Program-made: the position numbers and the translations under genes
Notes under the pieces: generated by a model
Told to the model about the DNA's origin: nothing
What the model saw: only the letters and a program-made list of their open reading frames with translations
The model's database searches: none
In this document: positions 53,818 through 58,801 of the stretch, one piece after another
Position numbering within the stretch: the stretch's first letter is position 1
Layout of the letters: the number at the start of each line of letters is the position of its first letter
Source: Bacteroidota bacterium
Lineage (GTDB): Bacteria; Bacteroidota; Bacteroidia; Bacteroidales; JAAUTT01
Direction of reading: 5' to 3'
Length of the DNA: 64,000 bases
Assembly (NCBI GenBank): GCA_030706405.1
Contig: JAUZOO010000007.1
Span: 186,001 to 250,000, forward strand

Positions 53818-54588
53818 TTATTTCAAAAAAAATAAAACAGGTATTGTTACTAATGATCTAACTTTTTGTCCATCTTTAATTGCAGGAGTCCAATTAGGCA
53901 TTAATTTGACGACTCTTAATGCTTCTTCGTTCAGCTCACTACATAAATTACGGATTAATTTAAAATTACTTAATTTCCCATCGCATTCTACGATACATTG
54001 GACAAAGACAAATCCAGCACAATCTGCTTCAATATCCGGCCAAATTAGTTTGCTGTTTATAAAATTATTAATTCTATCTCTTTTAGTTATTCCTTCAAAT
54101 CCTCTAAAATCTGGTAATACATCAACATCTTTACATACTGAATCATCTGTTTTATATTGCAAACATTTAAAATGTGTATATGGTATTTTTATTATTATTG
54201 ACATTTTAGTCTCAATCTTTTTCCCATTTTGAAGAGGAGGTTTCCATTTGGGTGCCAATTTAAATACTCTCATAATTTCGTATTCAACAAGGGTATCTTT
54301 AACCAGCCCTTTTACCCTTGATAAATATTGTGGATTAATATTTATATTTACCACGTTACCTAACGTATCAATTTCAAATTGAACAATTACTCTTCCTGTA
54401 GAATCTCCTAAATTTAATCGCTCATAATTAAAAGAGCTTTCTAAAAAACAGGAGAAGGCTTCTTCTCCTCCAGTGAATACAGGATATTGTTCAATAGGAT
54501 CAATAATAAGATCATCGTTTATGTTTTTATTCTGGCTGTATATATTAATTGAAACAAATAAAATAAATATTACAGATAAACTTTTCAT
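53818..54588 (-). CDS. Exported protein with two TonB_C-like domains
   Basis: A 256-aa protein with a signal peptide (MKSLSVIFILFVSINIYSQ) and two TonB C-terminal-like modules: one at ~65-150 (GRVIVQFEIDTLGNVVNINI ... WKPPLQNGKK) and one at ~180-256 (GFVFVQCIVECDGKLSNFKL ... NWTPAIKDGQKV). It lacks the long proline-rich spanning region of a true TonB, so an energy-transducing role is doubtful. ATG at 54588 begins the signal peptide; an open extension upstream runs into the transposase gene and is rejected. An IS5-family element begins 23 bp upstream and may have removed its native promoter. Confidence 0.75.
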   Translation of the reverse strand: MKSLSVIFILFVSINIYSQNKNINDDLIIDPIEQYPVFTGGEEAFSCFLESSFNYERLNLGDSTGRVIVQFEIDTLGNVVNININPQYLSRVKGLVKDTLVEYEIMRVFKLAPKWKPPLQNGKKIETKMSIIIKIPYTHFKCLQYKTDDSVCKDVDVLPDFRGFEGITKRDRINNFINSKLIWPDIEADCAGFVFVQCIVECDGKLSNFKLIRNLCSELNEEALRVVKLMPNWTPAIKDGQKVRSLVTIPVLFFLK

Positions 54589-54611
54589 AGAGGCTTTTTT
54601 AAATTGATTAA

Positions 54612-55476
54612 GAGTATGTTTTGGTTTTAAAGTATTATTATTCAATTTATTATACTCAGAATCACGGCGCAGTTGGCTAATAAAAGCACAGATTCGGCAC
54701 ATTTAGTTGAATGCTCGTAATCTTTGGAGAGTCTGCGAAAGAAATTAAACCACCCAAAAGTTCGCTCACTAACCCATCGTTTTGCAACAGGAATAAACCC
54801 TTTTTCACTGGGAGGTTTTGATGTAACCTCCACAGTTATTTCAAAGCATTTTTGAGCTTCTTCGATGAATGTTCCTTTGTATCCTCCATCGACTAATATC
54901 TTTTCAAGCCGCAATAGCCTGTCTTTTATTTTTTCAAACAAATTACACCCCATCACTGTATCCGAAAGATGGGCTGCATGAACAGAACAAGACCAGACAA
55001 GCCCCAAAGTATCTACTAATACCTGACGTTTTCGTCCGTTTATCTTCTTATTTCCATCTATGCCTTTATCTTCATAAATCATAGGAGCTAATTTAATCGA
55101 CAGGCTATCAACACAACCTAAACTTGGCGTTTCTTCCCGGTTGGATTGTTTACGAAGATGCCCGTTCAATGAAAAAGTAAGAGCTTCAAAGGTTCCATCA
55201 TTGGTCCATCGATAAAAATAGTAGTAAACACTATGCCACCGCGGGCATATTTTACCAGGAAGGTTGCGCCATTGACAACCCGTTCTGAGGATATAAAATA
55301 TTCCGTTTACTACATTTCTCAACGAATTCTTCCGTTTCCTTTGGTTATTTAACACGGGTGATATAATTCCCCACTGGGAATCTGTAAGCTCATTAAATTG
55401 AGTGACCATAATTTTAGTTTGTCGTTATTCCAAAATTATGAACAGATTCCTTATTTCAAAATTTCAAAACGTGCTC
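54612..55476 (-). mobile_element. IS5-family insertion sequence (IS1031-like)
   Basis: About 865 bp. The ends GAGTATGTTTTGG (54612-54624) and, inverted, GAGCACGTTTTGA (55464-55476) match at 10 of 13 positions. TAA lies directly outside both ends (54609-54611 and 55477-55479), consistent with a 3-bp TNA target duplication as I recall for the IS1031 subgroup. It holds one intact transposase gene. A second candidate right end lies at 55669-55689. Confidence 0.75.
54642..55409 (-). CDS. IS5-family transposase
   Basis: A complete 255-aa DDE transposase. The N-terminal block MVTQFNELTDSQWGIISPVL and GCQWRNLPGKICPRWHSVYY are typical of IS5-group proteins. Catalytic residues are visible: Asp in GCVDSLSIKLAP, Asp in ILVDGGYKGTF, and Glu with the following Arg in WVSERTFGWFNFFRRLS. 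No frameshift or internal stop is seen, so it may be active. Confidence 0.92.
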   Translation of the reverse strand: MVTQFNELTDSQWGIISPVLNNQRKRKNSLRNVVNGIFYILRTGCQWRNLPGKICPRWHSVYYYFYRWTNDGTFEALTFSLNGHLRKQSNREETPSLGCVDSLSIKLAPMIYEDKGIDGNKKINGRKRQVLVDTLGLVWSCSVHAAHLSDTVMGCNLFEKIKDRLLRLEKILVDGGYKGTFIEEAQKCFEITVEVTSKPPSEKGFIPVAKRWVSERTFGWFNFFRRLSKDYEHSTKCAESVLLLANCAVILSIIN

Positions 55477-55887: not shown

Positions 55888-55924
55888 AAGCCCGGCAAAA
55901 TTATAAAAAATTTATGCCGGGCTT
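55888..55924 (-). terminator. Hairpin terminator of the Cys-rich protein gene
   Basis: AAGCCCGGCA pairs with TGCCGGGCTT around a 17-nt AT-rich loop; TTATTTTG follows on the minus strand. It lies 37 bp after the stop of the secreted protein gene. Confidence 0.75.
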
Positions 55925-55960: not shown

Positions 55961-56356
55961 TTATATGTTCCACGAAACTTTAGCTTCGCAATAGCACTCA
56001 TACCAACCATCCGTTTCTAAAAAAAGACGAATGATTCCTGTGTATCGTAGTTCACAATTTTCCATCTGGTATCTATCATACGTAGAAGTTCCGTCATAAT
56101 TCCATGCATAGGTCCAGTAAATAGGGGAATTATTGACAGGATTGCCATTTGCTTCTATTTCGACGCACTGAACATCTCCCCAACAATATTGTCCGCTTCC
56201 AGAAAAAGTACAATCAAGGCTTACATTATAGGTGTCTGTATTGATATTTATATCCGTATATACAACATTACCACATGCTGTCAGGGTTTGCTCATATGCA
56301 AAACTGCTTGATATTGAAACAAAAAGAACGGTTAATACTAAAAGTATTTTTTTCAT
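55961..56356 (-). CDS. Small cysteine-rich secreted protein, unknown function
   Basis: A 131-aa protein with a signal peptide (MKKILLVLTVLFVSISSSFA). The mature part (~110 aa) has seven cysteines (in TACGNVV, LDCTFSG, YCWGD, QCVEIE, NCELRY, and ECYCEAK), many aromatic residues and few lysines, consistent with a disulfide-stabilised beta fold. I do not recognise a family. It lies 137 bp downstream of the SurA-like lipoprotein gene on the same strand, which could fold or chaperone it (inference). Confidence 0.65.
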   Translation of the reverse strand: MKKILLVLTVLFVSISSSFAYEQTLTACGNVVYTDININTDTYNVSLDCTFSGSGQYCWGDVQCVEIEANGNPVNNSPIYWTYAWNYDGTSTYDRYQMENCELRYTGIIRLFLETDGWYECYCEAKVSWNI

Positions 56357-56493
56357 AATTTTAAATTTTATATGATTAATAATTAAACATAAAGGTTGAC
56401 TAAATCTGTAGAAGGATTGTTCGTGAATATTTTTTAGTTTGTTTCTTCGCGCGTAAAACCAGCAAAGAACACGTTTTTATTATTGTTACTTTT

Positions 56494-58173
56494 CTATTTT
56501 TTATGTATGTATTCTTTCAGCCGATTTACTTTTACCGGATATTTTGCTTTAAGCTCGTCCATTAATTTATCGTATAATTTCTTTTCTTCCATCTGCAGCA
56601 ATTTGCGCCTAATCTCTTCTTTTACATAATTATAAGGCAAGGTTGCTTCCCCGTTTTTTTTCAACAGGTTAATTGCCGACATTTCTCCATTAACTTCAAT
56701 TGGCATAGATAGCTGTCCTTCGTTCATTTGAACAATAACCCTGATAAAGTTTATATTATTGCCAGATGTATCTGAAACCACCAGTTTAACCTTTTCGCTT
56801 ACTGATAAAAGACCTGAAATTTTCTTGGAATCAATTTTAGCATTTGGACTTAGTTTCAAATGCTGCCGTATTTGATTCATCCCGGAAAACGCAGACTGTT
56901 TATCCTTAAACTTATAAATGGATACAATGGCAGATTCAAAACTTTTAAAAAGGCTTCTATTCTCTTCGTAATATTTTTTTATCATCTCCTCTCCAAAGGA
57001 TAAACGGGACATATTTTTTTCTTTGTAATACTGAATATAAATTTTGTTTAAGTATTGCCTTCTGAAGAGCTGATACTGATTGTCGGCATCGATATTTAAT
57101 TTTTGGGCTTCTTCAAACAAATAAATATCAAACAAATAATTTTTCATCATACCCTTAACATCTTTGTCATTCGAAAGGGATCCTAAAAACATAGGCTGAC
57201 ATTGGGTAAACTCTATAAAATCGGATACCCTGTAAGATAAACGTTTCCCTTGAAACATGTAATCCATGAGTACCTTCCGCTTATCCACACCTGGCCATTC
57301 TTTCTTGTCCGGTTTATATTTTGAAACCATTTCTAATATTTCGGGATCATGCCAATAGGGATTTGCTTTACTCAAAATATCTTTTTGACTTTCCCAAATA
57401 TATTTTTCAGTCAGGCTATTTAACAATTCTTCCTCTATTTTAGATTTTTCTTTTTCAAAGGCAGGTTGGGTAATTTTTTTTATTCCGGCTAAATAAACAT
57501 CATAATACCCGTTTAAAGTTTCTACCGGCCCCCATACATGTCCTATTTTTGCATTATTTAAATCCTTGATGTAATTTCCAATTGGGTAGAATGGGTAACA
57601 TTTACGATAAGTTATAAATTTAATATCTGGGTTTGTTGCTACACGGTTTTTCAGCAAAAAAAAATCGGAAGCTGATTTTATTTTTACCTCTTCGTTGAAA
57701 TGTTTATCCGACAAACTCTTTTGGGGAAAATAAATCAGATTTAATTCATATTCGGAGCTCCTTTTATTAAAGGCCTCTTGAACTTCCTCTTTACTAACTT
57801 TAAGGAATGGTTTAACTTTGTGGTTCCATACAAACCCATTAACTTCAGAAGCATAAAGGCGGGAAGCATACTTTAACCTATTTTTTAATAAGGCAATCGT
57901 GTCGAACCGGTTATCCAAAGCATAAGCAAGGATATATCCATCTTCTGTTATTCTTTTTTCAATTTGGTCTTCACTAATAGCTTGTTTTCTTTTTTCAAAG
58001 TCACTCTTTAGTTTTTGATAATCATCAACTACAAATTTGTATTTCCCAATTTCGAGGAGAACCTCATTCCCAATATTGGTTTTACAACTCAAAATAAAGA
58101 TTGTGAGTAATGATAAAATACATGCAACTCCTGATTGTACAAGTGTTTCTGATGGTTTTTTTATTTTTGGCAT
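56494..58173 (-). CDS. SurA/PpiC-like peptidyl-prolyl isomerase lipoprotein (divergent)
   Basis: A 559-aa protein with a lipobox-type signal sequence (SLLTIFILSCKTN), so it is predicted to be anchored in the membrane by a lipidated Cys near residue 30. The layout fits a chaperone of the SurA/PrsA class: an N-terminal helical SurA_N-like region (~35-140), a degenerate parvulin-like segment ending VWGPVETLNGYYDVYLAG (~215-235), then a second long helical/parvulin-like half (~290-540). The isomerase active-site residues are not obvious, so chaperone activity without catalysis is possible. The 649-bp region upstream has repeats but no recognised promoter. Confidence 0.6.
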   Translation of the reverse strand: MPKIKKPSETLVQSGVACILSLLTIFILSCKTNIGNEVLLEIGKYKFVVDDYQKLKSDFEKRKQAISEDQIEKRITEDGYILAYALDNRFDTIALLKNRLKYASRLYASEVNGFVWNHKVKPFLKVSKEEVQEAFNKRSSEYELNLIYFPQKSLSDKHFNEEVKIKSASDFFLLKNRVATNPDIKFITYRKCYPFYPIGNYIKDLNNAKIGHVWGPVETLNGYYDVYLAGIKKITQPAFEKEKSKIEEELLNSLTEKYIWESQKDILSKANPYWHDPEILEMVSKYKPDKKEWPGVDKRKVLMDYMFQGKRLSYRVSDFIEFTQCQPMFLGSLSNDKDVKGMMKNYLFDIYLFEEAQKLNIDADNQYQLFRRQYLNKIYIQYYKEKNMSRLSFGEEMIKKYYEENRSLFKSFESAIVSIYKFKDKQSAFSGMNQIRQHLKLSPNAKIDSKKISGLLSVSEKVKLVVSDTSGNNINFIRVIVQMNEGQLSMPIEVNGEMSAINLLKKNGEATLPYNYVKEEIRRKLLQMEEKKLYDKLMDELKAKYPVKVNRLKEYIHKK

Positions 58174-58582: not shown

Positions 58583-58615
58583 ATTTACAATGTGTATTAT
58601 TAATACATTGTAAAT
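58583..58615. repeat. Inverted repeat with 10-bp arms
   Basis: ATTTACAATG (58583-58592) and CATTGTAAAT (58606-58615) are exact reverse complements; the 13-bp core between them (58593-58605) is also partly self-complementary. A candidate operator or leader hairpin, 410 bp from the start of the SurA-like gene. Confidence 0.5.
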
Positions 58616-58763: not shown

Positions 58764-58801
58764 AAATAAACGACGCAACCACTTGGCTACGTCGTTTATT
58801 T
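58764..58801 (-). terminator. Hairpin terminator of glgB
   Basis: AAATAAACGACG pairs exactly with CGTCGTTTATTT around a 14-nt loop; it lies 22 bp downstream of the glgB stop on the minus strand and is followed there by TTTGTC. Confidence 0.8.

Follow-up and report, generated by a model that had tools for sequence, protein, structure and literature searches.

A SurA-like lipoprotein lacking catalytic parvulin histidines is consistently paired with small, divergent exported proteins in Bacteroidales

The window analysed here is a 64,000-nucleotide stretch (G000:C19:186001-250000) of a 4.9-Mb Bacteroidota genome. On its minus strand lies a pair of genes: first a lipoprotein gene and then, 137 bp on, a gene for a small exported protein (ORF list). 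The initial annotation had described a 131-aa exported protein with seven cysteines on the same strand as a 559-aa lipoprotein, and both open reading frames (ORFs) are present as described. In window coordinates, the features of the locus are:

55888..55924, minus strand: hairpin terminator behind the small gene, AAGCCCGGC...GCCGGGCTT (sequence, hairpin scan)
55961..56356, minus strand: small exported partner, 131 aa; mature part 111 aa with 7 Cys and 19 aromatics (ORF)
55964..55984, minus strand: C-terminal strand ending AKVSWNI, carrying the Trp signature conserved among partners
56297..56356, minus strand: Sec signal peptide of the small protein, MKKILLVLTVLFVSISSSFA (cleavage site placed by eye)
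56494..58173, minus strand: SurA-like lipoprotein, 559 aa (ORF, Pfam PF13145, AF2, Foldseek, catalytic columns)
56617..56991, minus strand: parvulin-like domain 2, residues 395-519, catalytic His absent (Rotamase_2)
57448..57798, minus strand: parvulin-like domain 1, residues 126-242, catalytic His absent (Rotamase_2 match C19:243448-243798, six-frame genome search)
58084..58086, minus strand: lipobox Cys, residue 30 (LSC-KTN; ...FILSC30), invariant in family alignments
58764..58801, minus strand: palindrome with 18-bp arms just behind glgB, probably the glgB terminator; upstream boundary of the module

With the hairpin behind the small gene at one end and the palindrome behind glgB at the other, the pair has the look of a single, delimited unit. 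Its downstream neighbour is an open ORF for an IS4/5-family transposase (255 aa, 54642-55409; Pfam), so that the insertion sequence (IS) reported initially is present, as more than the mere 'scar' it was taken for. The longest ORF of a TonB-like gene (53818-54702) overlaps the 3′ end of the transposase ORF, which suggests that the IS inserted just upstream of that gene. The 650-bp intergenic region, initially called structured, deserves the term to a moderate degree: it folds better than shuffles (z -2.5), its strongest element is the palindrome at 58764-58801, and it has no match in Rfam. A perfect 11-bp palindrome in the lipoprotein gene's leader (ATTTACAATGT/ACATTGTAAAT, 11-bp spacer, 58583-58615) is a possible regulator site. 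The Bacteroidetes promoter TAnnTTTG was not found upstream in the window, and comparisons with viral contigs, plasmids, PHROGs and Rfam gave no matches.

Several approaches agree with the initial annotation on the SurA-like layout of the lipoprotein. Pfam Rotamase_2 (PF13145) matches residues 395-519 at 1.6e-13, and an AF2 model built with five homologues (mean pLDDT 83) predicts two consecutive helix-plus-parvulin halves. Foldseek against the PDB placed PEB4, Cj1289 and HP0175 best and also matched PrsA and SurA, while a profile search against PDB sequences reached PEB4 at 7.5e-13. By its predicted structure, the 559-aa lipoprotein is thus a double-parvulin SurA-like protein. The isomerase residues had been described as not obvious; when the domains are aligned with housekeeping parvulins of the same genome, the catalytic columns lack both His in both domains in all nine family members (for example, GYY, GYF or GWY for GYH, and SIY or SVY for HIM), which marks the lipoprotein, as judged from its residues, as a pseudo-parvulin. 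Housekeeping parvulins are encoded separately in the same genome, and its 561-aa housekeeping PPIase keeps both catalytic His. The family thus has the SurA-like fold with parvulin domains and is exported, and lacks in 9/9 members the catalytic His that would be expected in at least one domain of a SurA-type protein. For SurA itself, PPIase activity is dispensable in the assembly of outer-membrane proteins (PMC9820271). In NCBIfam, where the PrsA equivalog cut-off is not reached, the window lipoprotein has no PrsA-named match; its best curated match is PRK00059 (36.8 bits versus a cut-off of 303), and one relative scores 38.4 against a cut-off of 343 with the PrsA model PRK03002.

Full-length members of the lipoprotein family were found at nine loci in four genomes (two in G000, four in G046, two in G852 and one in G846), which represent different families of the host's order. 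The family is rare: one draw of 393 genomes from the order contained at least 2 carriers, and another, in which the best three candidates per genome were scored, at least four genomes with full-length matches; these counts are lower bounds, and several hundred genomes of the order were sampled overall. Phylum-wide matches outside the order are partial and fall on ordinary SurA/PpiD proteins, and the distribution is patchy and accessory. The second G000 locus, on contig C16, encodes a 43% identical paralogue with a small exported protein on either side, the two small proteins sharing 80% identity. The first three members from G046 (MAG SZUA-471), at about 20% identity, each have a small exported neighbour.

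The pairing hypothesis was set from the window, C16 and these three G046 loci, and further loci were then found by profile. In all four later loci (the fourth in G046, the G852 pair and the single G846 locus) the lipoprotein has a small exported protein as its immediate neighbour, and in G846 there is one on either side. Across the family, one or two signal-peptide proteins of 110-139 aa adjoin the lipoprotein on the same strand at 9/9 loci, four of them blind. The same detection script found such a neighbour for 0/38 ordinary parvulins of other Bacteroidota and for 6/92 background genes, the neighbour in four of these six cases being one of the same small genes (2/92 without them). Fisher's test gives p of about 7e-10, an upper bound on the strength of the association because paralogues are not fully independent; chance is nonetheless excluded by the contrast between 9/9 family loci and 0/38 control parvulins. 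Gene order varies, the small gene standing first, last or on both sides, and the pairing holds at 16-20% lipoprotein identity and across genomes, where partners can no longer be aligned. The neighbourhood survey that the initial annotation had proposed therefore upheld its candidate as a real and conserved module, on a footing far stronger than the adjacency from which it started. That the lipoprotein and the small exported protein form a dedicated module is, on comparative grounds, well supported, and our comparisons suggest that such a helper-plus-client module is undescribed.

Other neighbours proved accessory. A Wzy_C O-antigen-ligase-like gene stands beside two of the four G046 loci (one of the remaining loci lies at a contig end) and is absent from the loci of other genomes; a 1030-aa hydrolase, beside three of the four, is likewise absent from the loci of other genomes, and G033 and G381 carry it unaccompanied by the lipoprotein. 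The G046 regions concerned (L011:377-7664, L012:3240-6326 and L013:1661-6602) encode Wzy_C+TPR O-antigen-ligase-like proteins and 1030-aa alpha/beta-hydrolase lipoproteins, and G381 (L061) carries the hydrolase with a Wzy_C+TPR protein and without a SurA-like lipoprotein. At C16 of G000 (L004:7990-10626), the gene immediately downstream of the second small gene encodes an 878-aa protein with an MG2 domain and a TonB plug domain; the region starts with SusC/SusD-like genes. Among the neighbouring ORFs read at the nine loci, part of which were scanned against Pfam, no ATP-grasp ligase was recognised.

The 11 small partners have mature parts of 90-119 residues, with 16% aromatics, 2.4% Pro and 0-7 Cys; this range leaves no place for a Cys-rich, disulfide-based definition of the kind initially emphasized. 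Their signal peptides are similar, that of the window being nearly identical to one at a G852 locus (L095; MKKALLILSVLFVSISSSYA), and most end in S-F/Y-A or -G (cleavage by eye). Gln stands at the predicted mature start, placed by eye, in 0/11 partners, contrary to the Bacteroidetes Q-rule, by which most exported Bacteroidetes proteins begin with Gln (PMC10653852). The window partner is homologous to a partner at a second G852 locus (L096; z 4.7, 0/300 shuffles), and the latter to one from G846 (z 3.1); beyond these pairs and the C16 duplicates, partner alignments were no better than those of shuffles. The two C16 partners show a dN/dS of about 0.66 (NG86), a ratio that indicates that these copies are diverging fast.

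Trp lies within the last three residues of 8/10 partners, one C16 copy being omitted, against 1.0 expected (p 2.8e-7, uncorrected for the 60 tests made; the signature was spotted post hoc). It mostly closes a strand of the form phi-x-phi-x-W. Ar-X-Ar motifs, considered as a sign of SurA clients, number 28 against 26.7 expected from composition and were set aside. Pfam, NCBIfam and PHROGs gave no match that names any partner, leaving them orphans; DUF6520 scored 16.2 bits against a gathering score of 25.4, mostly on the signal peptide. A haemolysin-like fold (E 0.011) came from a poor alignment and vanished with better ones. The AF2 model of the window partner is poor (pLDDT 51), strand-rich at low confidence, and was discarded as a structure-search query. 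Because most partners from different loci have no detectable homology, they are grouped as a putative client family by their position, their size, the signal peptide and the terminal Trp.

In the scan, 6/11 small genes are followed by a hairpin that scores better than every shuffle. Both C16 small genes are also followed by the stem of the window hairpin, there with a longer loop (by eye). None of the nine lipoprotein genes has a hairpin behind it; in loci with the small gene in first position, the hairpin separates it from the lipoprotein gene. Such placement would fit an abundant client and a scarce chaperone.

We give about an even chance to the reading that the pair comprises a client-dedicated, non-catalytic periplasmic chaperone lipoprotein and its fast-evolving small exported client. 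The small protein would be exported by Sec through its signal peptide, and the lipid-anchored, catalytically dead SurA/PrsA relative would act as a periplasmic holdase dedicated to the small protein encoded beside it, binding it unfolded, probably through the aromatic C-terminal strand, and keeping it in a state from which it could fold, insert into the outer membrane or be secreted further. The chaperone would stay conserved while its clients diversify fast. This reading explains the fold, the anchor, the lost catalysis, the constant pairing, the asymmetric divergence and the aromatic C-terminus together. SurA recognises aromatic motifs near client C-termini and can act as a chaperone without PPIase activity (PMC9820271), and both properties support it, the former in combination with the 16% aromatic content and the terminal Trp of 8/10 partners. 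It is weakened by Ar-X-Ar frequencies at the level of composition, the mostly undetectable partner homology, the poor partner model and the post hoc Trp signature. Of the dedicated folding or secretion chaperone proposed initially, the module is thus well supported, and the mechanism is plausible, being in keeping with a pseudo-parvulin fold, a lipid anchor and the Trp conserved at partner C-termini.

Known systems resemble the module in part. The family shares its fold and its chaperone-domain-plus-parvulin layout with SurA, PEB4, HP0175 and Cj1289, but differs from them in being lipid-anchored, in its two consecutive halves, in the loss of all catalytic His, in its constant pairing with a small exported protein and in its restricted distribution. 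PrsA foldases are likewise lipoproteins with a parvulin chaperone fold; unlike the present family, they are general Gram-positive foldases with one parvulin domain and no tie to a divergent neighbouring gene. A precedent supporting the chaperone reading is the SurA-like partner MirC, on which rosaritide biosynthesis depends: MirC and the TIGR04500 PpiC-related partners of graspetide clusters are, like the protein proposed here, SurA-like and dedicated to one small ribosomal product (PMC13097080). However, MirC belongs to a host without a periplasm, works with an ATP-grasp ligase and has a single SurA-like domain, and TIGR04500 gave no match to the window lipoprotein and 11.6 bits against a cut-off of 180 for one relative (E 0.12).

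The strongest rival of the chaperone reading, which we regard as unlikely, has the small protein secreted to antagonise related bacteria and makes the lipoprotein an immunity factor or a decoy or resistant copy of the target. The partners are small, of secreted type and very divergent, with the C16 dN/dS noted above, and stand beside a catalytically dead, target-like protein of patchy, accessory distribution; PDB entry 8hm3, 'PPIase-BfUbb', also ranks 25 among the fold matches of the lipoprotein. BfUbb, a small secreted Bacteroides toxin, has reportedly been crystallised with a PPIase. The likeness to BfUbb lies in a small secreted protein tied to a PPIase, and that to BSAP in an adjacent target copy: BSAP toxins go with a resistant version of their receptor encoded alongside, and BSAP genes were acquired with adjacent receptor orthologues (PMC5705921). 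Yet the small proteins have no sequence match to these Bacteroidales toxins, and Pfam and NCBIfam show neither a ubiquitin nor a MACPF fold in them. No toxin family was matched in Pfam, NCBIfam or PHROGs, the one weak haemolysin match was lost, BfUbb producers have no adjacent immunity gene and need none, and a lipoprotein far more conserved than its partner would be unusual among toxin/immunity pairs.

Were the small proteins structural subunits of a fibre, coat or surface layer, with the lipoprotein as their assembly factor in the manner of pilin chaperones, the chaperone reading would simply acquire a polymeric product; the two small genes flanking the lipoprotein at C16 and G846 and the strand-rich, low-confidence partner model point that way, but the loci share no gene for an usher, exporter or pilin, and we assign this variant little probability. 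It is also quite improbable that the genes are co-inherited or co-regulated yet function independently, with the lipoprotein as a general envelope chaperone. The unfixed gene order would suit separate action, and loci within one genome may be duplicated cassettes; against it, the same genome already encodes separate housekeeping parvulins, and the pairing persists across genomes at 16-20% lipoprotein identity with unalignable partners. A bolder and doubtful combination would be an undescribed Bacteroidota weapon or signalling system, in which a dead SurA-like lipoprotein that reads the Trp-ended strand matures diversifying small secreted payloads and protects the producer; the variable cargo would then be the functional payload.

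SurA-like chaperones are normally generalists. If the chaperone reading is true, the family would represent a client-dedicated periplasmic chaperone, non-catalytic and lipid-anchored, encoded beside one divergent small exported protein. The module would then offer a way into an unannotated class of secreted proteins that evolve fast; their Trp-ended C-terminus makes the proposed recognition step directly testable.
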